A stretch of 64,000 bases of DNA, taken from contig JAQBRY010000002.1 of the NCBI GenBank assembly GCA_028286245.1, positions 330,779 through 394,778 of the forward strand, written 5' to 3'. Origin of the DNA: Candidatus Saccharimonadota bacterium (GTDB lineage: Bacteria; Patescibacteriota; Saccharimonadia; Saccharimonadales; UBA4665). The notes below the pieces were generated by a model that worked only from the letters and a program-made list of their open reading frames with translations, ran no database searches and was not told the DNA's origin. A program made the translations under genes and the position numbers. Each line of letters opens with the position of its first letter. Within the stretch, counting starts at the first letter, position 1. Of the stretch, positions 33,395-51,385 are shown piece by piece.

Positions 33395-34447
33395 ATGATC
33401 ACTAACTTGCACTTGCAAAACTTTCGTTCGTACGAGGACCGTGTGTTCAATTTTAGGTCCGGCGTTAATATTGTGGCCGGACCAAACGCCAGCGGCAAAA
33501 CCAACCTGCTGGAAGCAGTACTGGTAATTGCTACCGGCAGTTCGTACCGGGTAAAAGATGCCGACCTTATTGCCCGCGATCAGCCATGGGCTCGGCTCGA
33601 TAGCCGTGACCAAAAAGGGTTGCTCCGGACCGTCAAAATTATTACCGAACCGGCGGCCAAAAGTTATGAGCTGGCCGGCAAACCTACCAAGCGGCTGCTC
33701 CTTAAAGACACGCTGCCAGTTGTGTTATTTGAGCCAAACCATCTCCAACTGTTAACCGGGTCACCGGAACGTCGCCGCAATTACCTTGATGAGTTACTGG
33801 CACAAATAGAGCCTGGCTACGCAACTACCCTCAGGCAATACAAACGCACGCTGGCTCAGCGCAATAGCCTGTTAAAACAGCTCACTAGTAGTAGTAGTGA
33901 CGGCCAATTATTTGCATGGGATATTCGGCTCAGCGAACTCGGTGGCAAAATTGCCCGCTCCCGGGCGCAGCTCGTCGATACATTAAATAATGACGTGCCG
34001 CAGCTCTATGGTGAGCTATCTCACGCCAAGACGGCTGTTTTACTGCGCTATGAAACCGCGCTCTCCATGGATAGTTATGAAACGCAGATGCTTAAAAAGC
34101 TGGAAACCAGCCAGGCACTTGACCAAGTCCGAGGCTTTACCGGTGCCGGACCGCACCGCGAGGATTTAGCGGTGCTCTTTGACGACCAAATTGCCAGCGA
34201 AACTGCCTCGCGCGGCGAAACTCGCACGGCAGTATTAACGCTCAAAATTCTAGAGTTACGCCTGCTGCAGGCAGTCCGCGACGAGGCACCCCTGCTCCTG
34301 TTAGACGATGTGTTTAGTGAGCTTGATAGCGAGCGGCGAAAGGCGCTTACCAGCTACCTAAAGGACTACCAAACCTTTATAACGACCACCGATGCCGATG
34401 TGGCGGCCCAGCACTTTACGGCTAGCGCCAACATTATTAAACTTTAG
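33395..34447 (+). CDS. recF: DNA replication and repair protein RecF
   Basis: An SMC-like ATPase of 350 residues that helps load RecA at gaps. LHLQNFRSYEDRVFNF opens the fold; Walker A GPNASGKTNLLEAV is at about 29-42; FEPNHLQLLTGSPERRRNYLDELLAQ is the RecF-specific segment; GAGPHREDLAVLFDD, the signature region SRGETRTAVLTLKI and Walker B LLLLDDVFSELDSERRKAL complete it. gyrB, the usual next gene, is not here; the type IV secretion locus follows instead. Confidence 0.94.
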   Translation: MITNLHLQNFRSYEDRVFNFRSGVNIVAGPNASGKTNLLEAVLVIATGSSYRVKDADLIARDQPWARLDSRDQKGLLRTVKIITEPAAKSYELAGKPTKRLLLKDTLPVVLFEPNHLQLLTGSPERRRNYLDELLAQIEPGYATTLRQYKRTLAQRNSLLKQLTSSSSDGQLFAWDIRLSELGGKIARSRAQLVDTLNNDVPQLYGELSHAKTAVLLRYETALSMDSYETQMLKKLETSQALDQVRGFTGAGPHREDLAVLFDDQIASETASRGETRTAVLTLKILELRLLQAVRDEAPLLLLDDVFSELDSERRKALTSYLKDYQTFITTTDADVAAQHFTASANIIKL

Positions 34448-34452
34448 ACGAA

Positions 34453-35070
34453 TTAGTCACCAGTAGGGGTATTGCCGTCGGTGTAGACGATCTCGGCCGT
34501 CGCCGTATTTACACCTTTAAATTCCAGCCAATCATTTGCTTCCTGGCGGCCTTCATCGGAATAATAGGTAACGTACAACGTTGTGGCTGTATGATCCGAA
34601 GGGTTCTTAGTCGAAGGACCGTAGTTGACGGTGAAGAGCCGGTCATAATACGGCAGTGACCCAATAATCGGTGTCTTTTGGGCAGCCTTTTGTGTTCCCT
34701 GTGCGAACAGTTTGCCGCCGAGAGCTTCCCGGTTGTGCTGTTCTTCGGGATGCTGGTTCAGATAATCATAACCAACTACGCTATTAGGGTTTAAAAGGAC
34801 GGTCAGCGGGGCTATTTTCCCATCGGTGGCGGTGAATTTTTGGGTAATCGTGGTAAAGCCGTCAAAGCGCGCTTTTAAGGTGTGCTCGCCCGGTGTCACG
34901 TGTGAATCGCCGCGCTTAGCGGCTTTGCCGTCAATGGTGAGTACGGCCGTGCTGGGCGCAACGGTAATAGAAATATTAGCCGGCTTCTTAAACAGGCTAG
35001 TAACGGCAAAGCCAATTACGAGTGTCAGTACTACCATGGCAGCTAAGATTGTCTGTTGTTTTTTGGTCAT
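34453..35070 (-). CDS. PEGA-domain membrane-anchored protein
   Basis: A 205-residue protein: an N-terminal signal anchor at about residues 8-28, then a PEGA-like beta domain (SITVAPSTAVLTIDGKAAKRGDSHVTPGEHTLKARFDGF, cited here in outline) and a C-terminal alpha/beta domain of about 110 residues that is not recognised. PEGA modules are extracytoplasmic and often attach to wall or partner proteins. Last gene of the minus-strand secretion operon, 11 bases after the hydrolase gene, so probably an outer accessory part of the apparatus. Confidence 0.68.
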   Translation of the reverse strand: MTKKQQTILAAMVVLTLVIGFAVTSLFKKPANISITVAPSTAVLTIDGKAAKRGDSHVTPGEHTLKARFDGFTTITQKFTATDGKIAPLTVLLNPNSVVGYDYLNQHPEEQHNREALGGKLFAQGTQKAAQKTPIIGSLPYYDRLFTVNYGPSTKNPSDHTATTLYVTYYSDEGRQEANDWLEFKGVNTATAEIVYTDGNTPTGD

Positions 35071-35081
35071 GTGCGTAGCCC

Positions 35082-36389
35082 TCAGTCTTCCTCGGTCTTT
35101 AGTAATCTAAATATTCTAAACTGCTCGCCGGTGTTGCCATCCTGGTAAAAGTAAACGCCATTACCGGCTTCTGGAACGCGCTGGCCCAAGGACGCGGACA
35201 CTATGCTAAAACCTTTGGACTGGGGCCCGACGAATATGTAGGTGTGTACGCTGTTAATAAAGATGTCGCCCGGCTGCAAACCCAAATCCCCGGTGTTCAC
35301 GTTCTTGGCGTCTGGAGGAATTTTAATTTCGGTGTAATTCGGGCTACTGGCAAGGTACGCCATCTGTGTAGGAGTGTAGACCTTGGGGTAGTTAGGGTCG
35401 GCACCGCTGGCGATCATAACGGTGGCCACAAAGATGCCGCAGTCGCTAAACGGCGTAGCGCCGGTAGTCCCATTATATTGGGGCATGGCCTTCTGATAGG
35501 TTGGCTTGGCGTCTGACTCCAGCGGGCCGTGTCCGGGCGTATCCCAGGCCAGATTCAGGGCCGTTTCGACAATATTGCCAGCCACCACGCCGCTGGAGCA
35601 CCCCGTGCCCGCTGCGCTCACACCAGCGGCGGTTCCACCAACGGCTGTCTTACCACCGGTTTGATCAACCGGATCACCATTTTTAGGCGAACCCTTGGTA
35701 AATCCAGAGCTTATAAGCGTGTAGATGTTGGTCATATAATTTTCTGTTTCCGCTGGCGCTGCAGACAGTGGAGATGACGGTGTGGTTTTTGAGCCAACAT
35801 TGCCACCACCCCAGTTATAGGTGGCAGAAAAGAACACAAAGGTGCCCGGTTTAAAAGGTGTTTCGAGTGTGCCAAGCGGCGAGGTTGTAGTCATACCATT
35901 TCTGGCGAGCATGTTCGCAACCGCATAGGTAGCATCATATAGATTCTGAATATCCACCACCCCGTCATTATTACCATCTACCTTATAGCCGCTCCAGGTA
36001 CCAGGCATAAATTGGAATGGCCCAGAGGCTCCTACCGGTGAGCTCGCCCACTTGGTGTCTGCCGGTACCCAAACATTGCTGTGCTCGCTCATAAATAGGG
36101 CGGCAATAAACTGGGGGTTAGTGTGGTACTGGGCGGCTGCCTTGGTAAATATGTCGGCGTAGACGGCTGGAACACTTGGCGGCAAAGTGCCCGCGACGGC
36201 GCTCTCATCGGTGGTACAGCCAGTATTATCTTCGGTGTCGTAATAATCAATGCCTTGGTCGAAAGCTTTTTTTTGTGCCGCCGACAGCGCCGAGACCGGA
36301 CCCGAAAGCATCGACGACGACAATAGCACCAGCAGTGAAGCTACTAGTGCCACCCGCTCGCCTATTTTTTTGACAGTAAATTTTGCCAC
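35082..36389 (-). CDS. Two-domain peptidoglycan hydrolase: lytic transglycosylase plus NlpC/P60-like peptidase
   Basis: A 435-residue secreted protein. Signal peptide about 1-36. The transglycosylase domain spans 60-220: ALFMSEHSN with the likely catalytic Glu near 103, GASGPFQFMPGTWSGY near 118-133 and DGNNDGVVDIQNLYDATYAVANML, typical of T4SS VirB1-like enzymes. A Gly/Ala/Thr-rich linker leads to a C-terminal cysteine-peptidase domain with FSDCGIF (Cys near 317) and VHTYIFVG (His near 377). The pairing resembles the CwlT hydrolases of Gram-positive conjugation systems, which open the wall for the channel. GTG start at 36389, overlapping the upstream stop by one base. Confidence 0.8.
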   Translation of the reverse strand: MAKFTVKKIGERVALVASLLVLLSSSMLSGPVSALSAAQKKAFDQGIDYYDTEDNTGCTTDESAVAGTLPPSVPAVYADIFTKAAAQYHTNPQFIAALFMSEHSNVWVPADTKWASSPVGASGPFQFMPGTWSGYKVDGNNDGVVDIQNLYDATYAVANMLARNGMTTTSPLGTLETPFKPGTFVFFSATYNWGGGNVGSKTTPSSPLSAAPAETENYMTNIYTLISSGFTKGSPKNGDPVDQTGGKTAVGGTAAGVSAAGTGCSSGVVAGNIVETALNLAWDTPGHGPLESDAKPTYQKAMPQYNGTTGATPFSDCGIFVATVMIASGADPNYPKVYTPTQMAYLASSPNYTEIKIPPDAKNVNTGDLGLQPGDIFINSVHTYIFVGPQSKGFSIVSASLGQRVPEAGNGVYFYQDGNTGEQFRIFRLLKTEED

Positions 36390-39300
36390 TAGGTGCCGTC
36401 TCCGCCGCAGCGATTACTTTCCGCCGACGCATCCCAGTGCCAAGCTTCTGCACTATATTGCCTAAAGCCAAATGCTGCAGCATTATTGTTAAGCCACTGC
36501 CAAGATGGATTTTCAGGGGATCGCTCACGGGTAGCACAGGTTTGATGGTTCTCATTTATTTCTGTCGGCCCAGAAAAGTCAATAGCAACGCCTAGCTGGT
36601 GCATTGAGCCGCCCGGCTTTGCGCAACTCCTGCCATCACCATTACCTCCACAAGACGCGCCCAGGCGGAAGGAGCTGTTCGCAGCTAACGGAACGCCGGC
36701 CGCTTTGGCTTTTTCGCCCAGAGTCTCCCAGGCGCCTGATACGCGAGCGTTTACAATCGCACCACCATTTATTTCCGTTCCGGCAGCATTATTGCCCTGC
36801 CCACCGATGCTACTCAATTGGCAGAGGTGCACCATAATTGGCCCGGTTTCTTTCTTGGCTGAGCCGGTGTACTGGCTGGCTACAACGCCCATGTCTTTGG
36901 TATTGGCAGCACAGGCAACTTTGTCGGAACTGACGCCAATATCACCGTCGATAGCACCGCTGCCAGTGCTAGCAGCAGGCGCTGCTGGGCCACCGCCAAA
37001 GCCCATTTCGCCGCACAGCTCCTCGTCGTCTTCGTAGCATCCGGCCGCTTTTATTGTTTGGGTGTCGGAGATAAACATTCGAACTTTGAGCCAGGTAGTA
37101 CTGGGGTCGCCGCAATTGTTTTCGGCGTAGTTTTTATTGGCGGTGTCCCCGTAAAGCGAGCGAGTACCAGGACTAACCGTTGCGTCCCACTCCGGCCCGT
37201 CCGCTGTTGCCACTTTTGCAATGTCAACGTTAAAGCAGGCTTTTGCGCGCTGAATCAGACCGGCACCGTTAGCCGAATCGAGCATGTCGGCTACCTCATC
37301 GCCGTTCTGCCAAGGATTATCAACCGCCGGATTATCCATTTCGGCCACACTGTAACTATAGGTAGGAAGTCCGTAGTCAAGTGGAGTCTTATCGACCGGC
37401 GCGTCCGCCGAAGCCTTAGAAGTAAACAGGTTAGCAATTGAGCCAAACACTGAGCCAATGTTCATGGTAGAGCCCACCAGCGAAGCAACATTTTGCGAAG
37501 CCGAAGGCGAAACGTTCTGCATTACCTTGCCGGCGGCACTCCGAGGGTCGGAGGGGTTAAATAATTTGTAAGCAACGCTTTGATTGTCGAACTCAGACTG
37601 CTCCAGGTTATTCTGAATGGCGCTTCGCTCACTGAGGGCCGCCGCCGTTTGGATAATGGCACCACTGCTTACCTCCAGAGTATCGCCGGCCATTTTGGCC
37701 CCCACGTCAAGGTAGTTGCCGACGTCCGGCCCCCACTTGGTCGGATCGTTAAGATTAACCGCCTCGCCGGCCATGAATCCAACTATGGCGTGTACGATCT
37801 TAGGCACCGCCACTGCACTTACGGCCGTGCCCGCCGCAAAACTCACCGGTCCTCCCAAGAAACCGACCGCTCCCAGCACGACCATGCCGGCCGTGCTACA
37901 GGCGGGATCCAGGGCTTTGCCGAGCGCGCCGGTTGTAAAAATACCGTTAAAAAATGAACTCTTTGCGATGCCGCCGATAACATTGTCCGGTTGTGCGCCC
38001 TTGTCCACGCTACCGGTAGTAATCTTTTTGATGCCGGCGGAATCTGCGTATGACCTTCCGGTATCCGGGTTGGTGAGAATTTCGGATTCGTCCCCCATTT
38101 GCTGGAGCAAATGAACATTGCTGGGGCCAAACATGGCCTCGCTGCCAATAGATATTATTCTCATAGCAACGCGCATGAGCGGCAGGATTATCTGGGCTTC
38201 TTTAACGGAATCGTAGTTCGCGTCAATGCCTCTGGCCAGGCACATCACGCCTACCGCGGCCGCTGGTCCGGCCACCCATTTGGCGCTGACACTGTCCGAC
38301 AGTCCCTTGAGGGCGCCAGGCTTATTCTGGTTTAGCTTGGCCTGTTCGGAAACGCTATCAGCTACACCCTTGTCGCTGGCGGCCTGTCCGGGGGCTGTTC
38401 CGGCCTCCTCCGGATTCGTATTTAAATCGGGTCTGGATTCGGTAGTAACCGGCGGTCCGGTATCGCCTTGAATGGCTTTAGTGCGGTTTTCACGGATTTT
38501 ATCTATTAGTTTATCGCCTTGCCCCAAGAGCTTGGTGTCGATCGCTTTTATGGGGCTCAGCGACCAGCCATACTTTTCCGCAATCACACGCGTGACAGCG
38601 CGTGATGACATTTTACCCATGCCCGATTCACGTAAGCTTTGCCGGATAAAGCTTTTATTATCCATGTAGCCTCTAAAATCAAAAAGCTTGCCATTACTGG
38701 CCTTATCTATAATAAGCGCCCCGTCCTTACCAGGAGAGACCGTCAGGTCTATCCCGTACTTGGCACTGACCTTTTCCTTGATTTCTTCGGGGCTAAGATT
38801 CTTAAACTCCGGAGCATCTGGATTGATAGCCCAGCCCTCGTGTAGGCCAAGGTTAGTCGAATAGGCCGATTTAAGCCCAACCGAGTTTAAACGTGCCTCA
38901 AACTTGGTTGCATAGTGGTTACCGATACCCCCCATGCGCGTCTTTTCCGTCTCTCCTTTGCGGATATAATTCAAGTTACGCAGTGCCTTTGTCATGCGGA
39001 AGTCGGACTCATCACTCTGTGGTGCCAGTCGCGCCCCGGAGGCTATTTTAGCGGCTTGCACAAACTCGAATGGTCCCGCTAGGAAAGTGCCGGCAAAAAT
39101 GGCACCGGCTACTAGCACGCCGGCAATGCCGCCAGCCGCACCCTTCTTTTTATTACGAGCTAAAAACTGTAGAGCTTTGGCGCCGCCACCGGCCGCGCTG
39201 GCCACAGCCGCACTGCCGCCAGCCGCGTTTTCGGCCGAAGCTAGGCCCGTGGGGCTAAGAGATTTAGCACCGTCGCTGGCTTGCCCTTCGGCTCCAGCCC

Positions 39301-39502
39301 CGGCTTCGGCCCCGGCAAGACCACCGAGCACGCTATCAATATTACCGAGCGCAGCGTCGGCGTTACCGAGCACGCGCTTGGTGGTGTCCTTGGAGGCGGC
39401 GCTCCGGCCGTCGGCCGTCGGCTCTTTATCGTAACCGGCACCATTGCTGTTAGCGACGTCACTACTACGCCGCGGTGGCTGATAAAAAACTTGCTTTGCC
39501 AT
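36389..39502 (-). CDS. Large secretion-locus membrane protein with C-terminal VanY-like peptidase domain
   Basis: A 1037-residue protein. Residues 1-130 are Ala/Gly-rich and low complexity, with a basic RNKKKG stop before a membrane span at about 135-158. Two further hydrophobic clusters occur near 420-460 and 540-600. The last 130 residues match D-Ala-D-Ala carboxypeptidase (VanY) folds: GSMHQLGVAIDFSG and AEAWHWD supply the His, Asp, Glu and His of the zinc and catalytic site, and SFRLGASCGG precedes them. It probably trims stem peptides around the channel. The middle 700 residues match nothing I recognise. Confidence 0.72.
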   Translation of the reverse strand: MAKQVFYQPPRRSSDVANSNGAGYDKEPTADGRSAASKDTTKRVLGNADAALGNIDSVLGGLAGAEAGAGAEGQASDGAKSLSPTGLASAENAAGGSAAVASAAGGGAKALQFLARNKKKGAAGGIAGVLVAGAIFAGTFLAGPFEFVQAAKIASGARLAPQSDESDFRMTKALRNLNYIRKGETEKTRMGGIGNHYATKFEARLNSVGLKSAYSTNLGLHEGWAINPDAPEFKNLSPEEIKEKVSAKYGIDLTVSPGKDGALIIDKASNGKLFDFRGYMDNKSFIRQSLRESGMGKMSSRAVTRVIAEKYGWSLSPIKAIDTKLLGQGDKLIDKIRENRTKAIQGDTGPPVTTESRPDLNTNPEEAGTAPGQAASDKGVADSVSEQAKLNQNKPGALKGLSDSVSAKWVAGPAAAVGVMCLARGIDANYDSVKEAQIILPLMRVAMRIISIGSEAMFGPSNVHLLQQMGDESEILTNPDTGRSYADSAGIKKITTGSVDKGAQPDNVIGGIAKSSFFNGIFTTGALGKALDPACSTAGMVVLGAVGFLGGPVSFAAGTAVSAVAVPKIVHAIVGFMAGEAVNLNDPTKWGPDVGNYLDVGAKMAGDTLEVSSGAIIQTAAALSERSAIQNNLEQSEFDNQSVAYKLFNPSDPRSAAGKVMQNVSPSASQNVASLVGSTMNIGSVFGSIANLFTSKASADAPVDKTPLDYGLPTYSYSVAEMDNPAVDNPWQNGDEVADMLDSANGAGLIQRAKACFNVDIAKVATADGPEWDATVSPGTRSLYGDTANKNYAENNCGDPSTTWLKVRMFISDTQTIKAAGCYEDDEELCGEMGFGGGPAAPAASTGSGAIDGDIGVSSDKVACAANTKDMGVVASQYTGSAKKETGPIMVHLCQLSSIGGQGNNAAGTEINGGAIVNARVSGAWETLGEKAKAAGVPLAANSSFRLGASCGGNGDGRSCAKPGGSMHQLGVAIDFSGPTEINENHQTCATRERSPENPSWQWLNNNAAAFGFRQYSAEAWHWDASAESNRCGGDGT

Positions 39503-39545
39503 GTGTTAATTTTTACCTAAACTAAAGTGCCTCTAATGAGTATTA

Positions 39546-41471
39546 TTATACGCTACCAGGATAGAGCCGGTTACTCAGGTCAATGGTGCCCTGTCCGGCG
39601 CTAAAATCACCTTGCTCCGCGGCCTGTTCCATTTGGGCAATTTGGTCGGGGCTAGTGGTAATAAGTGACGTTTCAGTAGGGCTGGCGGCCACTTGAATGT
39701 GGACGTGATTTTGACCGGCAAAGAACAACCCCTGTCCTACCGGGAACTGGCTCAGACGCTTGCGCTCCTCACTCGTTAATTTAAAAGTATCGGCCAGCAC
39801 ATCGACTGCCGAAGCCGACTGTTTAAGCAGAATCTGCATGCTGGCGTTGGCCACGATGGCTCTACCCATGCGTGATCCCATAAAGTCCTCAACGTCCTGC
39901 GTAATAGTCGTAATGCCTAAGTTATATTTACGGGCCCGCTTGGCCAGGCTAAACAAAAAGTTTGCCGAGTCCTCGTACTTCATGAGCTGCCAAGCCTCGT
40001 CTACAATTAGGATACGCTTGCGCATATCGCTCTTGGTCTTGTTCCAGATGTAATTAAGCACAATATACATGGCAACTGGCCGTAACTCGTCTTCCAGGTC
40101 GCGAATGTTAAAGACCACCAACGGGTTATTAATATTGATGTTTGAAGGCTGGCTAAAGATGCCGGCAAAGGTACCCGTAGTGTACTTACGAAGGCGCTGA
40201 GCCAGTTGCGGACCGTTACCGCCCATGTGCAGTAGCGTGTCGTACAGGTCGGCGATAGTTGGCGGAATTGAGCTGTGCGTTAGCGGGTCATTGGTAATAC
40301 CTGCCTTGGCATAAGTCTCTATAAGAGCTGCGTCTAAGTCGGCTTCTTCGCTCGGTGTCAGCACTGGCATTACTGTGGTATTGCCGCCAATCATCTGGGC
40401 CTGGGCGCCGCCCATCATCAGGCGAATCAGGCCGTGCAAGGTAATAAGGTTGGAGCGCAGCGCGTTATCGGCTTCGTCGCTATCAACTACTTGTGGAAGA
40501 TCAAAGGGGTTAATGCGCGTCGTTGAGTTGAGGCTCAGGCGAACATAGGCCCCGCCAACGGCGTCACACATGCGCTGATATTCATTTTCCGGGTCGATAA
40601 TAAATATCTCGGTGCCAAACATCATACTGCGTAGCGCCTCAAGCTTAACGGTAAACGACTTACCGGCACCGGACTTTGCAAACACCACCGAATTGCCATT
40701 TTCTAGGCTAAAGCGGTCAAAAATAACCAATCCGGAGTTGTGCATGTTAATACCGTACAAAATGCCGTTTTCCTGCGTTAAATCAGCGCTAGTGAACGGA
40801 AAACTGGTGCTAAGCGCGCCGGTGCTCATGTTGCGGCGTATCTGCAGCTTGTCGGTCATTTGCGGCACCGTACTCATGAGCCCCTGCTCTTGCTGGCTGG
40901 AGGCAGGCTTGCTGTAAATAAGCTGCTGGCCCAGCATCGATTCTACCTTGTGCGAAACATACTCAAGCTCTTCGAGCGTGCTGCCGTAAATAGTAAAGTA
41001 CAGGCCAAAGCGGAAGAAGCGCTCTTCGCCCACCTGCAGCTTGTCGCGCATTTCTTCGGCATCCAGAATGGCTGCTTGCTTGCCCGGATCGCGGACGCGG
41101 CCCTTTTCGTTATCAATTTGGATTCCGGCTTCGAGCTGGGTAACTTTTTTGCGAAGGTTTTCGAGTACCACCTGGCTTTCGACCGGATAAATATACATGC
41201 TCATGTCCACAACTTCGTCGAGGTTAACCATACCGCTCAACCAGCCGGTATAGACCTGCCGCGGGTAACCGTATACATAGTAGGTGCGGGCAAAGCGCGT
41301 TCCTAACTGAAAGTGCGTGCTGGAAAACTCAATAGAACTTGGTGCGATAAAATCACGGAGCGCCGTGATGCCCTTCTGAAATGCCGCCTGAACTTCTTGA
41401 TCTTCGCGTTCGCGCTGCGCCTGGGCAATGGCTACTGGGTCGAGCTGCTGTTTCTTTTTGCCTAGTGCCAT
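39546..41471 (-). CDS. virB4: VirB4/TraC-type conjugation ATPase
   Basis: The motor ATPase of a type IV secretion system. 641 residues. An N-terminal helical part (EVQAAFQKGITALRDFIAPSSIEF, YVYGYPRQVYTGWLSGMVNLDEVVDMSMYIYP in outline) joins the ATPase core: Walker A FAKSGAGKSFTVKLE near 263-277, FIIDPENEYQRM, Walker B RILIVDEAWQLMKYED near 485, and the late ITQDVEDFMGS and LLKQSASAVD motifs. The extra N-terminal domain seems to lie in the upstream gene at 41471-42472, whose TAA overlaps this ATG (TAATG). Confidence 0.9.
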   Translation of the reverse strand: MALGKKKQQLDPVAIAQAQREREDQEVQAAFQKGITALRDFIAPSSIEFSSTHFQLGTRFARTYYVYGYPRQVYTGWLSGMVNLDEVVDMSMYIYPVESQVVLENLRKKVTQLEAGIQIDNEKGRVRDPGKQAAILDAEEMRDKLQVGEERFFRFGLYFTIYGSTLEELEYVSHKVESMLGQQLIYSKPASSQQEQGLMSTVPQMTDKLQIRRNMSTGALSTSFPFTSADLTQENGILYGINMHNSGLVIFDRFSLENGNSVVFAKSGAGKSFTVKLEALRSMMFGTEIFIIDPENEYQRMCDAVGGAYVRLSLNSTTRINPFDLPQVVDSDEADNALRSNLITLHGLIRLMMGGAQAQMIGGNTTVMPVLTPSEEADLDAALIETYAKAGITNDPLTHSSIPPTIADLYDTLLHMGGNGPQLAQRLRKYTTGTFAGIFSQPSNININNPLVVFNIRDLEDELRPVAMYIVLNYIWNKTKSDMRKRILIVDEAWQLMKYEDSANFLFSLAKRARKYNLGITTITQDVEDFMGSRMGRAIVANASMQILLKQSASAVDVLADTFKLTSEERKRLSQFPVGQGLFFAGQNHVHIQVAASPTETSLITTSPDQIAQMEQAAEQGDFSAGQGTIDLSNRLYPGSV

Positions 41472-42472
41472 TACTGTAGCTCCCTCTGTAAGTGTGCCTG
41501 GGCTACGGCTCCCTCGCCCTTAGTAATCACGTCGGCGGTCAGGTCATCAAAGTTCTTGAGCTGCTGCCTGGTGGCAGTATCGGGGTTGTACGTGTCGTAG
41601 TACACCTCAATTAACTCCTGCGTGTCGAGCGGCAAGCCCTTAATACCACACTGCAGTAGCCCGCTCATTACCGACTGCACCCGGTTACGTAATTCCGACT
41701 TAGCTTTTTCGAGGTCGGCTTCGTTAATAGTAACGTGCTGCTCTTTTGTCTTAAATACACTGGTGATGTTACTAATAAAGCTTTTACTCTGCGCCAACGT
41801 CTGCTTGAGATCCTCGGTAGGAAAGAATGGAATGACCACGTAAAACTTTTTATCCATGATGTTGGTTTGGCGGCTGACGTTATCAATGTAGGTAATGTAG
41901 TCTTCCATGAGCAGTGCCAGCAGCATGTTGTCGTGCTCGGTGCGAATTTTATCCAGCTTTTCGATGTAGGGTTGTAAATCGACTTTTTGCGAGCGCACAA
42001 AAATCTGAATTGGAAAGTACAGCGAGTTTAAAAAACCCTGGTAGCTATATTCAACTGCTTCTTGCTCCTGAATGCTCATCAGGTCAAAGTTGATGCTCTT
42101 TACCATCACCACCGAACGAAATGAGCCGTCATTCATAATGACGATGCCGTCGCGTATTTCAGCAATTTGTAGCGTGTTCTGGGTGCTGTTTGGGTTGGTT
42201 TTTGGCGCCGCTGAGGGCTGGGCGCCGGGGTTAGAAACCACGGGTGCGCTGGCATACACCGAGGGCTGCGGTGCTTGCGGGGGCTGCGGTGCTTGATACT
42301 GCTGCGGCGCAACGGGCTGTTGTGGCAATGGTTGCGCTATAGGCGCAGCCGGCTGCGGCGCATACGCTTGCTGTTGCGGCATTGCAACAGCCGGCTGTTC
42401 CGGTAACTGCGCATACGTCTCACCGGCACCCTGCACTTGGTACTCTGGCTGATTTGGTGTTTGAGGATTCAT
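41471..42472 (-). CDS. VirB4 N-terminal-domain-like protein with Pro/Gln-rich leader
   Basis: A 333-residue protein. The first 85 residues are Pro/Gln/Ala-rich with repeated PQQ/QPxAP units. From about 95, QIAEIRDGIVIMNDGSFRSVVMVKSINFDLMS and SYQGFLNSLYFPIQIFVRSQKVDL resemble the N-terminal domain of TraC/VirB4 proteins, which appears here as a separate gene. It is coupled to the ATPase gene by a one-base overlap. It probably docks the ATPase to the membrane part of the channel. The family link is by pattern; similar split forms occur in Gram-positive and patescibacterial systems. Confidence 0.7.
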   Translation of the reverse strand: MNPQTPNQPEYQVQGAGETYAQLPEQPAVAMPQQQAYAPQPAAPIAQPLPQQPVAPQQYQAPQPPQAPQPSVYASAPVVSNPGAQPSAAPKTNPNSTQNTLQIAEIRDGIVIMNDGSFRSVVMVKSINFDLMSIQEQEAVEYSYQGFLNSLYFPIQIFVRSQKVDLQPYIEKLDKIRTEHDNMLLALLMEDYITYIDNVSRQTNIMDKKFYVVIPFFPTEDLKQTLAQSKSFISNITSVFKTKEQHVTINEADLEKAKSELRNRVQSVMSGLLQCGIKGLPLDTQELIEVYYDTYNPDTATRQQLKNFDDLTADVITKGEGAVAQAHLQRELQ

Positions 42473-42521
42473 ACGATTGTTTACTGCCCACCCATTTTAT
42501 AACTCGTTATGACTCGCATGT

Positions 42522-43682
42522 TTAACGTAATGATATCACCACCTCATCGTCAGAGCCCGAAATGTTCTTTGCCTTTTGAGCTTCACGGGCTAGTGTCGAT
42601 ATGTTGAGATCATTGTTATTTGCTAGGTTAAGTATAGCAGCATCAGGCTGGGCTGTCACCGGTTGCGGGGTTGTAGGTGGCTGGGCTGTCGGAGCCGCAG
42701 TGCTGAGTGAAACAGGCTCTAAGCGCGCCGGCTCGGATTGTGCTGGCTGTGGCACTTGCTGGGAGATAGGTTGGAGTGTCCGCAGGTGGGAATTGCTTAC
42801 TTGTTTTGATGAATTCAGGGCCATGGCTCGTTCAACCACGGCCTGCTCCTCGGCGGTCGGGACCGGATCAACGGTTGGCGCTGCCGATGGCAGAAGCACG
42901 GCTGGCTGTGGCGCGGCCTGCACCTGATCGATGACGGCCTGCTGCTGTGCAAACTGGGGTTGCTGCGCCGGGCCGTTAAACCACTGCGTTGCAGCCGGTT
43001 CGGGGGCTACGGTTGCCTCCACGGCTCGAACTTCGTTCAGTTGGTCGATAAGTTGCTTGCGATGTGCTTGCTCGCTGGCGTTTATCATCTGTGTAAATTG
43101 CTGGGCAACCGGACTAGTCTGATCATCCATAATATCGGCCGATTCGGGAATTTGATAATCCGGTACGGCCTGCGGCATACTGCTCACCGATACTAATCGG
43201 TCTGAATCATTAGTAATGACCCCAAAATTAGGCTGATTATACACCGATGCGCCTACGTTCTTAACCGCCCAGCCCCTAGAGTCGATGGTATCGGCCAGCG
43301 CGTGTAAACGGCTTCGCACTTCCGTTTGGCTCAGGCCATCAGTGTAAACCCGCTCAATTTTCTTAGGAACCGTAATGGTTACTAATTCCTTAACGCCGCT
43401 CTGATCCCAAATACGCCGGCGGGGCCGGAATAAAAACTGAAACTTAGCTGCTGCCCAGATTTCTGTTGGCTGGTCTTTACCAAACGGAAAGGCCAAAAAC
43501 CCAAATAGCAGCGCCGGCGGCAAAAATAGCACCAACAAAAAGGCCACGCCCTTAGTAAGCACTACAAACGACAGGTACAGAAAAAAGGCGGTAACAATGC
43601 CAAAAATAAACTGCTTAAGTGTTAACGGCCCAAGGATCTTATCCTCTGCCTCAATGTCCTGAATTACTTTGTACGTCGACAT
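42522..43682 (-). CDS. prgI: PrgI-family membrane protein with long Gln/Pro-rich tail
   Basis: A 386-residue protein. Residues 1-110 are PrgI-like: YKVIQDIEAEDKILGPLTLKQFIFGIVTAFFLYL, two spans between about 25 and 70, and PTEIWAAAKFQFLFRPRRRIW after the second, the signature of PrgI proteins of Gram-positive type IV secretion (the VirB3 counterpart). The remaining 270 residues are cytoplasmic, rich in Ala, Gln, Pro and Val, and not conserved in the family; they could bind the ATPase. Seven bases separate it from the VirB6-like gene upstream. Confidence 0.85.
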   Translation of the reverse strand: MSTYKVIQDIEAEDKILGPLTLKQFIFGIVTAFFLYLSFVVLTKGVAFLLVLFLPPALLFGFLAFPFGKDQPTEIWAAAKFQFLFRPRRRIWDQSGVKELVTITVPKKIERVYTDGLSQTEVRSRLHALADTIDSRGWAVKNVGASVYNQPNFGVITNDSDRLVSVSSMPQAVPDYQIPESADIMDDQTSPVAQQFTQMINASEQAHRKQLIDQLNEVRAVEATVAPEPAATQWFNGPAQQPQFAQQQAVIDQVQAAPQPAVLLPSAAPTVDPVPTAEEQAVVERAMALNSSKQVSNSHLRTLQPISQQVPQPAQSEPARLEPVSLSTAAPTAQPPTTPQPVTAQPDAAILNLANNNDLNISTLAREAQKAKNISGSDDEVVISLR

Positions 43683-43689
43683 AATCTAC

Positions 43690-46600
43690 CTACATATACC
43701 TATTATTAGTATCGTTTTCTACTTGCCGGTCAATGTCTGATTGCGGAGGGGTATCGGGTGTTGGCTGTGGACCGCCGCTAGGTGCTCCTGGATCTTCTCC
43801 GGGAGGTCCGTTACCGCTGCGTGTAGTGTTCTGCTGGACGCCCGCGCCAGACGGGAAGCTGTGTGTTCCAAAGTTGCTTTCAACGGCAATGGCAAAGTTG
43901 TTCCATTCTTCTTGGGCTCGGGCTGGACCGCCGGCAGCGACTTCACGGGCAGCAGGTCGCCCACCGGTCACAAGTTCGCGGTCGTCAGGGTCGGCCGCGC
44001 GAGCGCGAGCTGCTGCCGCAGCCGCAAAGGCACCGGCATCATCACCGCTCATATCGCCCGAAGGTGCCGGTGACATGGCCGCTGATCGCATAGAGGCCAC
44101 CTGTAGTATGGCGTTTTCTCGGAACTTGAGTGCCTCTTGGTATCGTTCTTCGCTGATGTTGTTAGCCTGTCGCTGCTCTTCACTGTAATTGATTATAGTA
44201 TTGTTCTCTTCTACACCTTCAGTTAATGTCCGAGCCACCGAAGCGTTATGTTGCACTGCTGCGTAGCCGTTCTGGGTGTTGACCACTTCTTCTAGGGTGG
44301 CAGCGGCATTTGTCTGGAGGCCACCCCTACTATTGACATCAAGGTTGGTAATTTTTGCAGCCTTAAGATCTCGATTAGTACCCTGGTGAGTAAACGAGGC
44401 GCCCTTGAGTATGCCCGTGGCCTGTCCACCGGACATAACCGATGCGCCAGTCCTGGTTTTGCGCCCTTGAGTAAGCCGGCCAAAGTTTTCTTTGTAGTAG
44501 GCTATATCCTCTGGCGCGGTGGCCTTACTGAGCTCGAAGGTCATGGCGGCCTGAATTGCAGATTGGTTGGAGCCGTTTTCCTTGTGGCCTGCCACCACAT
44601 CAGACCTGTGGAGCCAGGCGCCGCCGGCTGAACGGTACATCTTTTCGCCCGTTTCTTCGTCGTACTTCCAGTCTCCGTTCTTGCCATCCGTAGACTGAAC
44701 AGCCTGATCACTGTCGGCAAAGCCGAGGTCAACTGTTAATCCGCGTAAGCGGCTATTATCACCAAAGTTATGTGTCGTTTCCTGGCGCTTTGCTTCTTTG
44801 GCTACGTACTCAGCTCGAACATCAGTGATGTCCCGGCCACCTATGGTACGGGTCTTGCTGGCCAATCTTCGTGCCGCAAAGCTCTTTACGCCTGTTGAAC
44901 CGTCTGCTGTCTTCGCTAAGCTTCTGTGCATTCGCTCCTGCGCCGTTGACTTGCCTTCCCGCCACTTATCCTGCTTGATCTCACGCCGGCTCTTAATTGC
45001 ACCCATGTTATTTACCTTGGCGCCGGCACTGAGCGCGGCTGCACCTACGCGGCCAATAATGCCACCGGCCAGCCGGAAGGCGAACGGAATCATAAACAGT
45101 GGCAGGAACTGCAACGCAAAACCAATAATGGCGGCAAGGATGGTGCTTGATTTGTTAGCAAAGGTATCCTTTTGGATGATGTTATCCGGAGTAATACCGC
45201 CGCTTTGCAAGAACAGAATACTCAGTAGACTCGAGACTGCAAATACTACCATCACAATCGGATAGACAAGCAGCGTTTTAGTGAGCGCTTCCCACCATTT
45301 CTTAAAGTACTGTTCGGTATTCGGTAAACAGTAGAGTGCAAAGGCCACCGGGCTAATAATCACCAGCAAGGCGATGATTCCCTGCCGAAGCACCAGGGTT
45401 GCAAAGACGGCAATGATAGCGAAGAGGATCGGCAGGATCGTAAAGAAGGCCATGCCAATAAAGGCGCCGGCCGTACCCGTAAAGATCGCAAATATTGCCG
45501 CCGCTATAGAAGTAGCGCCCATAAATGCCCCGATAATCCCCAATGACAATATACCGACTGTTTGAGTGCCATTAACAGTAAACTGCCAGCACGTATGACC
45601 GGCTACTGTTCCGGCGGCACACTGAGACACGGGACTGGTAATAAGGTCGCTCATGCCGAGGCCCAGGATGTTCGTGATATCTACCAGCATAGCCACGATA
45701 TATATCGAAAGGTTTATAAGAATTGCCGCTGTCAGCAGCCGGGGCAACACTTTTTTAGCGGTATAGGCATCGATTATGCCACCGCCAATACTTTGCCCAA
45801 AAACAACGACAATCAAGGCCAGCAGCAAAAAGATATCGCCGTAAATACGGAAGTTAGCCCATATCCTAAAGCGTTCGTCGGCAGGGTTAGTACTAATTGG
45901 GTCCGTTACCAGTAATGGCTGAATAAGCGTTTGGAAAATAAACTTTGATACGCCGCTCACCCCGTCAAAAATCGGGCAGAGTAACCAGCCAAAAGAGCCC
46001 GCCCCATTGTCACAGTCCGATCCCTCATCTTTGGCCTGGGTGCCAACGATGGCTTGGTAGTCGCCGCCCTCAATCAAAACAGGGCTAGGGTTAGCCAGTT
46101 TGCCGCTGTCTTTAGTAAAGGCCTTGCAGGTAGAGGTTTCAGCAACACATGCGAGATAGTGTCCCGGCACTATGCCAGAGAACGTTCCCTGGAATAATAC
46201 CGTCGCACTCGCTGAGCCACCGGTATCAGCTGGTGTCTTGCCGCCCGCAAAATCAGGCACAGGCAGATCTATTGTTTGTACTATCGTCGTAGCGTTAACA
46301 TCGCGAATATCGACAGAAATCGGCGAATACACCGTTTGCTGGCCGCCGGAAACGGGCGCATTAACTCTTACCTGTACCAGTACCTCATCCGGATAGTAGC
46401 TGTCGCTGCTGCCATACGCCTGTGTGAATGGCTCAAATTGTTTTTTAGTAAACGGATGCGGCGTAATGTCTACCGCCGTAAAAGTTAACGTATAATTGCC
46501 TGCTTCAAGCGGGAAGGCAGCAAACCTGTACGTAAACGAAGTCAGCACCGGTGTGGAGGTATCGGCCGGGCTTGTTCCGCCGCTAATATGAGCAGTCGGG

Positions 46601-47139
46601 TTTGCAACAAGCCTGCCTGATGCGTCGGTAATATTGGCCGTAACATTGTCGGGTGGAGGGTTTGAGCCTCTGTTTGGAACGCCCAAGCTAATATTCACTG
46701 ACTTCTCGGTATCAGTTTCTACACGCGGCCCACTCGTAGACGGCCGCCCGTTAGAAATCCCAACACTTGATGCCACCTGTAAATCTTCGTAATAACAAAA
46801 GACCGTGCCCTGAGGAGCGGCGTTGGCTGATTTTTTGCTGAGCAGGTTAACTTTATTACCGCTAAAGTTAACGGTTGCCCCTAAGGCATTACAGCCTTTG
46901 GGCCCCTTAACGCCACCACTCAAGGAAGCCTGATTGCCAGTTGCGGCGCGGTTAACGGCCAGCGTCCCTGTTACCACGCCCGAAACATTGATCGTGTACT
47001 GGTCTTGCCAGGTAAAGGTAATAGAGTTACCGGCTGAGGCGGAACCCATAAGCTGCGTCAAAGGAGATTGCTGCACGAGCAGCAATAAAACGACCCCAAT
47101 AGCAATAGAGGCTTTTCTAAACTTTTGTAGTAGTTTCAC
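43690..47139 (-). CDS. TrbL/VirB6-like channel protein with extracellular beta domains
   Basis: An 1149-residue protein. Signal peptide about 1-36; residues 40-390 are beta-rich and extracytoplasmic with Ig-like stretches (VQVRVNAPVSGG, LEAGNYTLTFTAVDI); 430-690 contain seven or eight membrane spans (IFLLLALIVVVFGQSIGG, AIIAVFATLVLRQGIIALLVIISPVAFALYCLP), the VirB6/TrbL core that forms the inner-membrane channel. Residues 700-1149 are hydrophilic and Ala/Gly/Gln-rich, ending in a Pro/Gly tail. The start is GTG 47139, overlapping the stop of a 15-codon leader frame. First structural gene of the minus-strand operon. Confidence 0.82.
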   Translation of the reverse strand: MKLLQKFRKASIAIGVVLLLLVQQSPLTQLMGSASAGNSITFTWQDQYTINVSGVVTGTLAVNRAATGNQASLSGGVKGPKGCNALGATVNFSGNKVNLLSKKSANAAPQGTVFCYYEDLQVASSVGISNGRPSTSGPRVETDTEKSVNISLGVPNRGSNPPPDNVTANITDASGRLVANPTAHISGGTSPADTSTPVLTSFTYRFAAFPLEAGNYTLTFTAVDITPHPFTKKQFEPFTQAYGSSDSYYPDEVLVQVRVNAPVSGGQQTVYSPISVDIRDVNATTIVQTIDLPVPDFAGGKTPADTGGSASATVLFQGTFSGIVPGHYLACVAETSTCKAFTKDSGKLANPSPVLIEGGDYQAIVGTQAKDEGSDCDNGAGSFGWLLCPIFDGVSGVSKFIFQTLIQPLLVTDPISTNPADERFRIWANFRIYGDIFLLLALIVVVFGQSIGGGIIDAYTAKKVLPRLLTAAILINLSIYIVAMLVDITNILGLGMSDLITSPVSQCAAGTVAGHTCWQFTVNGTQTVGILSLGIIGAFMGATSIAAAIFAIFTGTAGAFIGMAFFTILPILFAIIAVFATLVLRQGIIALLVIISPVAFALYCLPNTEQYFKKWWEALTKTLLVYPIVMVVFAVSSLLSILFLQSGGITPDNIIQKDTFANKSSTILAAIIGFALQFLPLFMIPFAFRLAGGIIGRVGAAALSAGAKVNNMGAIKSRREIKQDKWREGKSTAQERMHRSLAKTADGSTGVKSFAARRLASKTRTIGGRDITDVRAEYVAKEAKRQETTHNFGDNSRLRGLTVDLGFADSDQAVQSTDGKNGDWKYDEETGEKMYRSAGGAWLHRSDVVAGHKENGSNQSAIQAAMTFELSKATAPEDIAYYKENFGRLTQGRKTRTGASVMSGGQATGILKGASFTHQGTNRDLKAAKITNLDVNSRGGLQTNAAATLEEVVNTQNGYAAVQHNASVARTLTEGVEENNTIINYSEEQRQANNISEERYQEALKFRENAILQVASMRSAAMSPAPSGDMSGDDAGAFAAAAAARARAADPDDRELVTGGRPAAREVAAGGPARAQEEWNNFAIAVESNFGTHSFPSGAGVQQNTTRSGNGPPGEDPGAPSGGPQPTPDTPPQSDIDRQVENDTNNRYM

Positions 47140-47183
47140 TTTTTCGTCTCAACATTTTTATTCAAATGGTGGTTGGTTAGCAT
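47136..47183 (-). CDS. 15-codon upstream leader peptide coupled to the VirB6-like gene
   Basis: ATG 47183 is preceded by GAAAGGG at a good distance and encodes MLTNHHLNKNVETKK; its TGA overlaps the GTG start of the VirB6-like gene (GTGA). The big gene has no good ribosome-binding site of its own, so ribosomes finishing the leader could restart there. There is no homology support for such a short peptide. Confidence 0.45.
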   Translation of the reverse strand: MLTNHHLNKNVETKK

Positions 47184-47199
47184 GCACACCCTTTCAACT

Positions 47200-47208
47200 A
47201 ATATACCA
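47200..47208 (-). promoter_or_regulatory. Extended -10 promoter of the secretion operon
   Basis: Minus strand TGgTATATT, hexamer 47200-47205, 16 bases before the leader ATG 47183. It faces away from the pilin promoter at 47306. Confidence 0.5.
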
Positions 47209-47305
47209 TGGTTTGCAATAATACCGTTGTAAATAAAATGATGATATACGGCACTTAGGAGCACTACTTTGCTCCGTAAAGCTTGCAAAAAGGGCCAGTA
47301 TTTAC

Positions 47306-47311
47306 TATAAA
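47306..47311 (+). promoter_or_regulatory. -10 promoter of the pilin cluster
   Basis: TATAAA eight bases before ATG 47320; a second overlapping TGgTATAAA abuts the start codon. The message would be leaderless or nearly so. Confidence 0.45.
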
Positions 47312-47319
47312 TGGTATAA

Positions 47320-47775
47320 ATGACGCAAAAATACAAAAAACAGCTTGTCGCAATCTTCGCTCTTATAACACTCATTGCATCAGTTGGTGTGGGCGCTGCC
47401 AGTGCTTCGGCGCTGTCGCCTGTCGCAGTACCTATAAGCACCGTGGCGGCCACCGCCACGCCAGAAAAGCTTCCCTGTGGAGCGGGCGCAGTGCCCAAGT
47501 CGTACATGCCGGTTATAAACATTGGCTGTAAAAACAAAGGTAACCCTATTGTGGACGCCCTGTTTGCCATTATCCGCTTCTTGTCATACGGCGTTGGCCT
47601 TATCATTGTCGGGTCGCTAATTGTAGCTGGTATTCAGTACACCACCGCCAGGGACGATCCTCAGGCGGTTGCCGCCGCCCAAAAAAGGATTAAGTCTACC
47701 ATTGGTGCCCTAGCACTCTTCATTTTTGGATTTACGATACTTAACTACGTTATTCCAGCAGGAGTGCTCAAGTGA
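47320..47775 (+). CDS. VirB2/TrbC-like T4SS pilin, paralogue 1
   Basis: A 151-residue small membrane protein: signal peptide to about residue 32 (ASASA), a Cys-containing segment (KLPCGAGAVPKSY, NIGCKNKG), span 1 near 75-95 (LSYGVGLIIVGSLIVAGIQYT), a polar loop (ARDDPQAVAAAQKRIK) and span 2 near 118-140. Two spans linked by a basic loop is the VirB2/TrbC pilin layout. First of six paralogues; its TGA overlaps the next GTG by four bases. Confidence 0.78.
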   Translation: MTQKYKKQLVAIFALITLIASVGVGAASASALSPVAVPISTVAATATPEKLPCGAGAVPKSYMPVINIGCKNKGNPIVDALFAIIRFLSYGVGLIIVGSLIVAGIQYTTARDDPQAVAAAQKRIKSTIGALALFIFGFTILNYVIPAGVLK

Positions 47776-48131
47776 TCGGTCTCTTTACGCACGTGGCCGC
47801 TACCTGCGGTGGCGGTGGCGATTTACTCGGCTTTCCTAAGTGGTACAAATACCTTGATGGCGTGCAAGTTAACAATGCCTGTACGCCACAAATAAGTTCA
47901 CTTACCGATGTTTGGCTGATTGTGGCCGCTGTCATCGAAATTCTGCTCCGGGTAGCCGCGCTGCTAGCAATCTTTTATGTTATATACGGTGCAGTTACCT
48001 ACATGATAAGCCGAGGTGAGCCAGACAAAACAACCAACGCCCGGCACACCATAATTAACGCCGTCATAGGCCTCGCTATTGCCGTTATTTCTGCAGCAGT
48101 GGTGTCCTTTGTGGCAGGGAGTATTCATTAA
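47772..48131 (+). CDS. VirB2/TrbC-like T4SS pilin, paralogue 2
   Basis: 119 residues, GTG start with GGAG upstream and a four-base overlap (GTGA) with the gene before. No obvious cleavable signal; the N-terminus has THVAATCGGGGDLLGFPKWYKYL with Cys and Gly. Span 1 covers VWLIVAAVIEILLRVAALLAIFYVIYGAVTYMI, the polar loop is SRGEPDKTTNARHTI and span 2 is NAVIGLAIAVISAAVVSFV. It may be a minor or assembly subunit. Confidence 0.72.
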   Translation: MIGLFTHVAATCGGGGDLLGFPKWYKYLDGVQVNNACTPQISSLTDVWLIVAAVIEILLRVAALLAIFYVIYGAVTYMISRGEPDKTTNARHTIINAVIGLAIAVISAAVVSFVAGSIH

Positions 48132-48134
48132 AAT

Positions 48135-48473
48135 ATGACAGGCATCCTCATCACTAAATTGCTAGCAGTTGTTGAACCAACCGGGCAAGTCAACTGTCTA
48201 TCAGACGGTGCTCAGGGTGATCCCTGTGACTCAGGACTACCTGTCGTCGGCGCCGGCTCCACGCAGCTACATCAAATCCTTCAAATTACCTTCGGTATTT
48301 TAGCCGTTATAGCCGTCCTCATGATTGTTATAGCCGGCATCCAGTTTATTGTTGATTCCGATAATCCGCAAAAGGTCGGTCAGGCAAGAAATGCTATTAT
48401 TTACGCAGTGGTGGGGCTCGTCATCGCCATTAGTGCCGAGATCATCGTCTCGTTTGTACTGGATAAATTATAA
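48135..48473 (+). CDS. VirB2/TrbC-like T4SS pilin, paralogue 3
   Basis: 112 residues with the shared two-span layout: LHQILQITFGILAVIAVLMIVIAGIQFIV, loop DSDNPQKVGQARNAI, and YAVVGLVIAISAEIIVSFVL. An N-terminal segment with two Cys (NCLSDGAQGDPCDSG) precedes span 1, and no signal peptide is clear. It starts three bases after paralogue 2. Confidence 0.73.
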   Translation: MTGILITKLLAVVEPTGQVNCLSDGAQGDPCDSGLPVVGAGSTQLHQILQITFGILAVIAVLMIVIAGIQFIVDSDNPQKVGQARNAIIYAVVGLVIAISAEIIVSFVLDKL

Positions 48474-48474
48474 T

Positions 48475-48876
48475 ATGAAGAAATTACTACTCATCTTTAG
48501 TCTTTTTGTTGCCATTGCCGCACCGGCGCTCGTTGTTTCGGGCGGCCAGGCCTCGGCCTACGACATTTTTGAGCACACCTGCTCTTCCGGCGGCAAAATA
48601 TCCAGCACCAGTGTTTGTAGCGACGTTAACCAGCAGGCCGGCAGCTCAGAAAATCCCGTGATCAGGGCCCTTAAAATCGCACTCAATACGCTTTCACTAA
48701 TTGGTGGCATTATTGCAGTTATTATGGTGATTGTTTCAGGGCTCCGCTACATAACATCGGATGGTGATGCCACTGGGGCCAAAAATGCCAAGCACACGCT
48801 CATGTACAGCCTTATTGGCATTGCTATAATAGTTGCCGCCCAAACAATAGTCAGATTTACCCTGAGCAGGATTTAA
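48475..48876 (+). CDS. VirB2/TrbC-like T4SS pilin, paralogue 4
   Basis: 133 residues from ATG 48475, directly after the stop of paralogue 3. Signal peptide MKKLLLIFSLFVAIAAPALV up to about residue 25, a Cys pair in the mature N-terminus (HTCSSGG, STSVCSDV), span 1 LNTLSLIGGIIAVIMVIVSGLRYI, loop TSDGDATGAKNAKHTL and span 2 YSLIGIAIIVAAQTIVRFTL. A longer in-frame reading from 48349 would overlap paralogue 3 and is rejected. Confidence 0.78.
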   Translation: MKKLLLIFSLFVAIAAPALVVSGGQASAYDIFEHTCSSGGKISSTSVCSDVNQQAGSSENPVIRALKIALNTLSLIGGIIAVIMVIVSGLRYITSDGDATGAKNAKHTLMYSLIGIAIIVAAQTIVRFTLSRI

Positions 48877-48885
48877 AGGAGATAT

Positions 48886-49317
48886 ATGAAATATAGATTA
48901 AAAAATTTTATAGCCGCTTTCGCGCTCACGCTTATGACACTACTGTCGCCGATGTCGGTGGCCGCGCTGAGCGCACCCAACGGCACTATCGTTGCCAGCC
49001 TAAAGCAAGATGCCTGTGCCGGGCTTAGCTCCGTAGATGCTACGCAGGGCTGTGGTGATACGGCAGACAAGAGTGTTAACACCCTTGTGCAAACAGTAGT
49101 AAATCTTCTCTCTCTGGTAGTCGGCATTATTGCGGTCATTGCCATCATTCTGGCTGGACTCAAGTACGTTACTTCGGGTGGTGACGGCAATAAGGTGTCG
49201 TCGGCTAAAACTACCCTCATCTTTGCCCTGGTTGGCCTGGTGATCGTGGCGTTTGCCCAGTTCCTGGTACGCTATGTGTTTAATACTGCGGCCCAGGGGG
49301 TAACGCCTAGTCCATAA
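48886..49317 (+). CDS. VirB2/TrbC-like T4SS pilin, paralogue 5
   Basis: 143 residues, AAAGGAG before the ATG. Signal peptide to about residue 30 (VAALSA), mature part with DACAGLSSVDATQGCG, span 1 VVNLLSLVVGIIAVIAIILAGLKYVT, loop SGGDGNKVSSAKTTL and span 2 FALVGLVIVAFAQFLVRYVF, ending in a TAAQGVTPSP tail. Closely similar to paralogue 6, pointing to a recent duplication. Confidence 0.8.
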   Translation: MKYRLKNFIAAFALTLMTLLSPMSVAALSAPNGTIVASLKQDACAGLSSVDATQGCGDTADKSVNTLVQTVVNLLSLVVGIIAVIAIILAGLKYVTSGGDGNKVSSAKTTLIFALVGLVIVAFAQFLVRYVFNTAAQGVTPSP

Positions 49318-49409
49318 ATATTGGTTTTGACCCTACTCCGCAAGAGGTAAACCGCTTGCATTGAGGAGCGAGTAATAGTATAAGTAATATAAAGTAACGA
49401 AAGGTTAAT

Positions 49410-49841
49410 ATGCTCCAAAAAATTAAAAATCACCTAATAATCCTCGCCACTGTGGCTGGATTTAGTGTCTCGGTCCTCGCCCCTATCGGTGTGGCATCGG
49501 CAGCAAACAATATTCAGGATAGCCTGTGTCAGGGTACAAACATCGCAACTACCGGTGTTGCCTCTAACGGCTGTGCAGCTGAAGCTGATTCAAACGCCTT
49601 TAACAACGTTGCTAAACGAGTTGTTAACATCTTCTCTGTTATCGTTGGTATTATTGCCGTCATCTTCATCATCTACGGTGGTTTCAAATACATCACCTCT
49701 GGTGGTGACAGCAACAATGTCTCCGGTGCTAAGAACACGTTGATCTATGCCATTGTTGGTTTGATCATTGTCGCCATGGCACAATTTATTGTCCGCTACG
49801 TATTCAATACGGCAGCCGGTGCAGTTACCCCTTCCGCCTAA
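49410..49841 (+). CDS. VirB2/TrbC-like T4SS pilin, paralogue 6, probable major pilin
   Basis: 143 residues with the same plan as paralogue 5: signal peptide ending VASA, a Cys pair, span 1 IFSVIVGIIAVIFIIYGGFKYIT, loop SGGDSNNVSGAKNTL, span 2 YAIVGLIIVAMAQFIVRYVF. It has its own upstream region with TATAAG/TATAAA boxes and a GAAAGG site, and a strong terminator after it. Codon choice differs from its neighbours: GGT, AAC, ATC, GTT, TTC, TAC and CGT dominate, as in highly expressed genes. This suggests the abundant filament subunit. Confidence 0.8.
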   Translation: MLQKIKNHLIILATVAGFSVSVLAPIGVASAANNIQDSLCQGTNIATTGVASNGCAAEADSNAFNNVAKRVVNIFSVIVGIIAVIFIIYGGFKYITSGGDSNNVSGAKNTLIYAIVGLIIVAMAQFIVRYVFNTAAGAVTPSA

Positions 49842-51253: not shown

Positions 51254-51343
<90 letters not shown>

Positions 51344-51380: not shown

Positions 51381-51385
51381 GATCA

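Follow-up and report, generated by a model that had tools for sequence, protein, structure and literature searches.

The window analysed here, a stretch of 64,000 nucleotides from a Candidatus Saccharimonadota bacterium, carries a type IV secretion system (T4SS) block flanked by recF, dnaN and dnaA on one side and by hsp20 and comF on the other. Seven minus-strand genes (34453-47139) face six plus-strand pilin genes (47320-49841), as had been described in an earlier note made from the sequence alone; all the open reading frames are present and the coordinates given for them are exact (Table 1). Comparison with relatives places the start of pilin 4 at about 48475, versus 48349 for the mechanical open reading frame. 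The same note called the locus divergent, which is correct against textbook systems but not within its class, where the arrangement is ordinary. Two tRNA-Ser genes are located about 1.4-1.8 kb downstream of the locus. Beside them, a 47-nt repeat is found in two copies that are 77% alike (51335-51381 and 51483-51529), each of them containing a terminator-like inverted repeat.

Table 1. Genes of the T4SS block and its flanks (positions in the window), followed by the pilin 1-2 fusions of relatives (positions in the loci named).
Feature	Position	Strand	Remarks
dnaA	30496..31977	+	Origin side of locus; flank kept in relatives
dnaN	32272..33363	+	Protein search across the class
recF	33395..34447	+	Last gene of the origin block; converges on the T4SS operon
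PEGA-like protein, membrane-anchored	34453..35070	-	One TM, PEGA-like domain, conserved C-terminal domain (Pfam and family alignment)
Two-domain wall hydrolase	35082..36389	-	SLT transglycosylase and C-terminal Cys/His module; putative VirB1-like role
Scaffold protein, 1037 aa	36389..39502	-	Exchangeable C-terminal enzyme, VanY (M15) in this genome
VirB4 ATPase, P-loop half	39546..41471	-	TraG P-loop, 4ag5, Walker A
TrsD-like protein, N-terminal VirB4-like half	41471..42472	-	Weak TraC_F_IV match; directly upstream of virB4 in relatives
PrgI/VirB3-like membrane protein, long tail	42522..43682	-	PF12666, 9e-10
Extended VirB6-like polytopic membrane protein, 1149 aa	43690..47139	-	Structure match and conserved order
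Pilin 1	47320..47775	+	PF18895, 5e-6; adjoins virB6; ortholog class p1
Pilin 2	47772..48131	+	PF18895, 4e-7; 4-nt overlap with pilin 1
Pilin 3	48135..48473	+	PF18895, 2e-14
Pilin 4	48475..48876	+	PF18895, 2e-10
Pilin 5	48886..49317	+	PF18895, 3e-11
Pilin 6	49410..49841	+	PF18895, 2e-14
Hsp20	49909..50388	-	PF00011, 1e-16; neighbour kept across the class
ComF-like phosphoribosyltransferase	50517..51179	+	PF00156, 3e-13; neighbour kept across the class
Pilin 1-2 fusion, L019	1542..2381	-	
Pilin 1-2 fusion, L023	2387..3319	-	
Pilin 1-2 fusion, L031	3855..4661	-	
Pilin 1-2 fusion, L040	2550..3377	-	
Pilin 1-2 fusion, L051	2222..3385	-	

The P-loop half of VirB4 is recognized by the TraG P-loop family of Pfam (9e-27) and by the Thermoanaerobacter-type VirB4 structure 4ag5 (1e-48), with a shorter aligned stretch in the case of TrwK from R388; its Walker A motif is AKSGAGKS. 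The near relatives found for this protein are Saccharibacteria or MAGs, and Quinonero-Coronel 2025 (PMC12102498) places the Patescibacteria clade of VirB4 inside MPF_FATA. The N-terminal VirB4-like half, named TrsD after the usage in that paper, shows a weak TraC-like match in Pfam (0.05). Its gene and that of PrgI, which matches PF12666, are neighbours of virB4 both here and in relatives. Among the gene names proposed earlier, PrgI, VirB4 and VanY are supported by Pfam, as is the wall hydrolase by its SLT match, while those of the PEGA protein (0.07) and of the N-terminal VirB4 half are weakly matched. The median identity is 85% for VirB4 versus 21-27% for the VirB6, scaffold, hydrolase, and PEGA proteins.

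Pfam recognizes no family in the 1149-aa protein. An AlphaFold (AF2) model obtained with 64 relatives as input reached a pLDDT of 62 overall, with much of the membrane core at 90 or above, and when 350,542 PDB chains were compared its two best matches were the stalk chains 8rtd_L and 8rt9_F of the R388 VirB5-VirB6 structure (TrwJ/VirB5-TrwI/VirB6 complex). The match is modest (probability 0.89, E 0.06-0.07), and the length of the matched chains (268-272 aa) suggests TrwI/VirB6. On the basis of this modest structural match and the conserved position of the gene, the protein is probably a VirB6 homologue. A VirB6 profile was also run against the sequences of the PDB and returned chance helical matches only (best E 0.08). 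At least two VirB6-like frames are arranged in tandem in several relatives, namely L120, L124, L131, L134, L137, L138, L141-L143, L149, L150, and L156.

The genome of the window contains one copy of the virB4 locus. A second divergent VirB4 (37-39% identical), absent from this genome, occurs in the relatives G043, G049, G072, G073, G076, G081, and G097, and one TGA is found within the matched virB4 frame of G073 and also in the sole copy of G068. Regarding other T4SS components, Pfam gave no family match to VirB7, VirB9 or VirB10 among the genes of the locus, and no VirB8-like protein was recognized there. A VirB8 hidden in the scaffold protein was considered and discarded, its AF2 model (pLDDT 72) matching only VanY-type enzymes in the PDB. 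The search of the genome for VirB11 that the earlier note had proposed identified none: the PF00437 matches are all outside the locus, four of them resembling type IV pilus ATPases in their size and pairing (551-602 aa in three cases, and 362 aa in a fourth that adjoins one of those) and a fifth falling below the cut-off.

The six pilins, whose identity had already been proposed, all score above the cut-off of PF18895 (T4SS_pilin), and they are the only genes of this family in the genome. The identity among the six paralogues ranges from 21 to 53%. Across the 35 genomes that have exactly six pilins, the window among them, 207 of the 210 pilins have their nearest neighbour from another genome at the matching place in the array. 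The clades are nearly pure for positions 1-4 and 6, and with a profile for each position the arrangement 1-2-3-4-5-6 is also found in other families of the order. In the large sister family within this order pilins 1-3 alone are clearly matched, and further out only pilin 1. Pilin 6 is doubled in L050, L064, L071, and L074. Pilins 1 and 2 are contained in one open frame in five genomes, each half matching its own profile, and these five genomes group as a single clade in the VirB4 phylogeny, which points to a single origin of the fusion. A cysteine pair common to all pilins seemed likely in the window and was discarded, as it is not constant across orthologues. From these sequences we infer that the six pilins are positional orthologues, that is, old and non-equivalent subunits rather than recent copies, and that pilins 1 and 2 may work as a pair. 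The fixed positions fit poorly with antigenic variation or host-strain diversification, at least in this order.

The protein encoded after virB4 combines a conserved membrane scaffold (approximately residues 120-830) with a variable C-terminus. In this genome the C-terminal end is a VanY domain (residues 960-1023, Pfam 3e-9), and Foldseek related the model to the VanY-like L,D-carboxypeptidases 4jid and 4mph; no PDB match was obtained beyond this end. A scan of the last 400 residues of 91 scaffold orthologues gave the following classes: VanY (18), M23 (16), M74 (4), GDSL (4), M14 (2), Amidase_2 (2), and Exo_endo_phos (2), with single phosphoesterase, beta-lactamase-type, and NlpC members and many orthologues without any match. 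One scaffold is accompanied, in this way, by about ten catalytic families. For instance, the scaffolds of L029 (phosphoesterase) and L014 (no match) are 48% identical, and those of L011 (amidase) and L035 (no match) 53%. On the VirB4 tree, the 63 genomes with an assigned class show 23 class changes versus a mean of 22.8 (range 18-25) for shuffled labels, some of these classes having been derived from linkage in BLAST or from low scores in Pfam and a C-terminal cluster of 15 members being read as M15-like on weak matches. Scaffold pairs at 30-40% identity belong to the same class in 48% of cases, versus 43% at random. The enzyme class thus appears to change randomly with respect to VirB4, with no detectable phylogenetic signal. 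The scaffold tracks VirB4 weakly (rho 0.22), so that the gene may also be exchanged in its entirety. As for the two-domain hydrolase, it matches SLT_2 in Pfam (5e-12), and residues C317 and H382 are near-invariant in the family alignment; its orthologues carry a phage tail lysozyme in 26 of 42 cases, and SLT, glucosaminidase, NlpC/P60, C39, Amidase_3, M23, CHAP, and GDSL domains are also found.

Among 99 evenly drawn Saccharimonadia genomes, virB4 and dnaN are each present in 93; both occur in 89 genomes, in 77 of them on the same contig. The two genes are less than 15 kb apart in 71 of these 77 (median gap 7.1 kb) and lie on opposite strands in all 71 close pairs, which bears out the synteny at oriC on which the earlier note had asked sister genomes to be compared. 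The order dnaA-dnaN-recF, hydrolases-virB4-trsD-prgI-virB6, pilins, hsp20, and comF is kept in 80 relatives wherever the contig is long enough, with a few local rearrangements, and most of 40 class-wide loci examined have the same gene order. Conservation in more than 100 genomes excludes chance, and the conserved place and order across the class make the T4SS block an inherited class feature. Four genomes (G065, G068, G074, and G089) are without the main virB4 and without dnaN; the origin segment is probably absent from these assemblies rather than lost. Degenerate DnaA boxes are found at 30434, 30497, 32057, 32190, and 32199, bunched near the origin block; over the whole window they are no more frequent than expected by chance. 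The three between dnaA and dnaN (32057-32207) constitute a candidate origin, and the GC skew of the window is uninformative. High gene dosage due to the origin-side place, also put forward earlier, is suggested by position only and is already in print.

The relaxase search, which comprised the families PF03432 and PF13814, gave no match in the whole genome, in line with the earlier claim; the silence of PF13814 says less, as this model passed its cut-off in none of 14 control genomes. No long direct repeats flank the T4SS block. Pfam recognized no coupling protein among the genes of the locus, and to this extent the reported lack of a coupling ATPase holds; nonetheless, one distant ATPase resembling VirD4/HerA/TraG is encoded on contig C3, outside the locus, with a borderline PF12696 match (TraG-D_C score of 22.2 bits against a cut-off of 22 in one search and 19.4 in another). 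Distant T4CP homologues of this kind are present in most Patescibacteria according to the 2025 survey (PMC12102498), and such an ATPase elsewhere in the genome leaves DNA handling by the T4SS possible. A PF02534 (VirD4-type) match on contig C4 proved to be a PilB-type ATPase and not VirD4.

The locus itself is already described, and this genome adds another case of a published kind of T4SS. Essentiality has been demonstrated in one cultured species, Southlakia, whose epibiotic growth requires the T4SS locus SEML1_0006-0019 with its pilins; this T4SS is devoid of coupling protein and relaxase (Wang 2023, PMC10633639). The genes for the peptidase and lysozyme, which lie downstream of virB4, are among those required, as stated in PMC12102498, which also presents the family as a whole: its MPF_FATA ancestry, TrsD, PrgI, VirB6, arrays of 2-11 pilins, no relaxase, and a place close to dnaA. 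A FEMS review (PMC12857230) repeats the family description and gives six pilins. A dedicated host-contact machine, one of the options given in the earlier note, agrees with this published view (PMC10633639, PMC12102498).

We consider it reasonably probable that the block is a Saccharimonadia-specific, vertically inherited, non-conjugative T4SS of the monoderm (MPF_FATA) lineage, acting as a translocation machine at the contact with the host and equipped with a wall-breaching tip that can be exchanged. A membrane channel of PrgI and VirB6 would be powered by VirB4 together with the TrsD-like protein, and pilins 1-6 would be the non-interchangeable subunits of one mixed-subunit surface structure, in which pilins 1 and 2 would pair at 1:1. 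The scaffold and transglycosylase proteins would cut an opening in the cell envelope, most likely that of the bacterial host, and material would then pass between epibiont and host. The host envelope is the likelier target because the enzyme types switch among close relatives while the own machinery stays constant, and a constant own wall would not explain the exchange. This fast switching is circumstantial evidence, and the enzymes could instead act on the own wall during assembly, in a VirB1-like manner. Transport may run in either direction, although we favour export of protein or of other factors to the host over uptake. In a more specific and tentative form, which we hold to be conceivable, the system would be a modular host-breaching device formed by a constant VirB4-PrgI-VirB6 engine, six fixed non-equivalent pilins (two of them an obligate pair), and an exchangeable enzyme end matched to the chemistry of the host envelope, which would set the host range. 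The exchanged end of the scaffold may be likened to the ends of phage tails that bind receptors or act as lysins.

Import by ComB of Helicobacter provides a model for a different reading, in which the T4SS would import host DNA or nucleotides into a cell unable to make nucleotides. The conserved neighbourhood of comF is in its favour, and Patescibacteria, which lack nucleotide synthesis, would need another route, given that comEC is dispensable in Southlakia (PMC11665869, PMC10633639). Nevertheless, such uptake seems unlikely: comF and hsp20 are flanking genes, the latter on the other strand, and need not belong to either operon, the block includes no nuclease or DNA-binding component, and the enzyme ends are mostly wall peptidases. 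Transglycosylases commonly aid assembly, as is the case of VirB1, and this, together with the six conserved pilins and the lack of a recognized coupling protein in the locus, would suit the assembly of the own wall or surface, with pilins and hydrolases building an adhesive pilus without translocation. We judge this improbable because the full VirB4-PrgI-VirB6 channel set is retained and because the enzyme ends change more quickly than the other parts, which would not be expected of an enzyme acting on an own wall that stays constant. Finally, a conjugative element (ICE), remnant or active, settled at oriC is very improbable despite its ancestry within the monoderm conjugation lineage (PMC12102498), the distant TraG/HerA-like ATPase, and the nearby tRNA-Ser genes, since no relaxase (PF03432, PF13814) or flanking repeats were found and position and order are the same in most of the class, with one copy in the genome; a recent ICE is already refuted by synteny, and the mobile-element reading, doubted from the beginning, is rejected.

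How ultrasmall epibionts tap host bacteria is one of the major open questions concerning the candidate phyla radiation, with this machine as the foremost suspect. Three points were not found in the literature searched: the positional-orthologue pilins, the pilin 1-2 fusion, and the switching scaffold enzyme. Pilins that behave as six fixed parts, and an enzyme class apparently without memory of ancestry, make the question more testable; if the enzyme class matches the type of host wall, hosts might be predictable from genomes.

Among the known systems, the diderm VirB/D4-type T4SS has VirB11 and a VirB7-9-10 core that were not found at this locus. The monoderm MPF_FATA conjugation systems (pCF10 Prg and pGO1 Trs) share VirB4, the split TrsD/VirB4, PrgI, a VirB6-like protein, and a two-domain transglycosylase; they differ in that a relaxase and a coupling protein are present and VirB2 pilins are absent, according to PMC12102498. 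The Patescibacteria-clade T4SS presented in that paper has all the components, the pilin array, no relaxase, and the location near dnaA. Its authors propose that array diversity may aid adaptation to host strains, whereas in this order the six pilins are fixed positional orthologues; in the parts of its main text consulted, no mention was found of enzyme ends being exchanged on a single scaffold. Judging from published descriptions, the T4SS of Candidatus Southlakia epibionticum ML1 has the same VirB4, PrgI, VirB6, and TrsD homologues, and genes for a peptidase and a lysozyme that likewise lie downstream of virB4, and its locus is also devoid of relaxase and coupling protein; it also has six pilins (PMC12857230) and, by its locus-tag number, a place near the origin.
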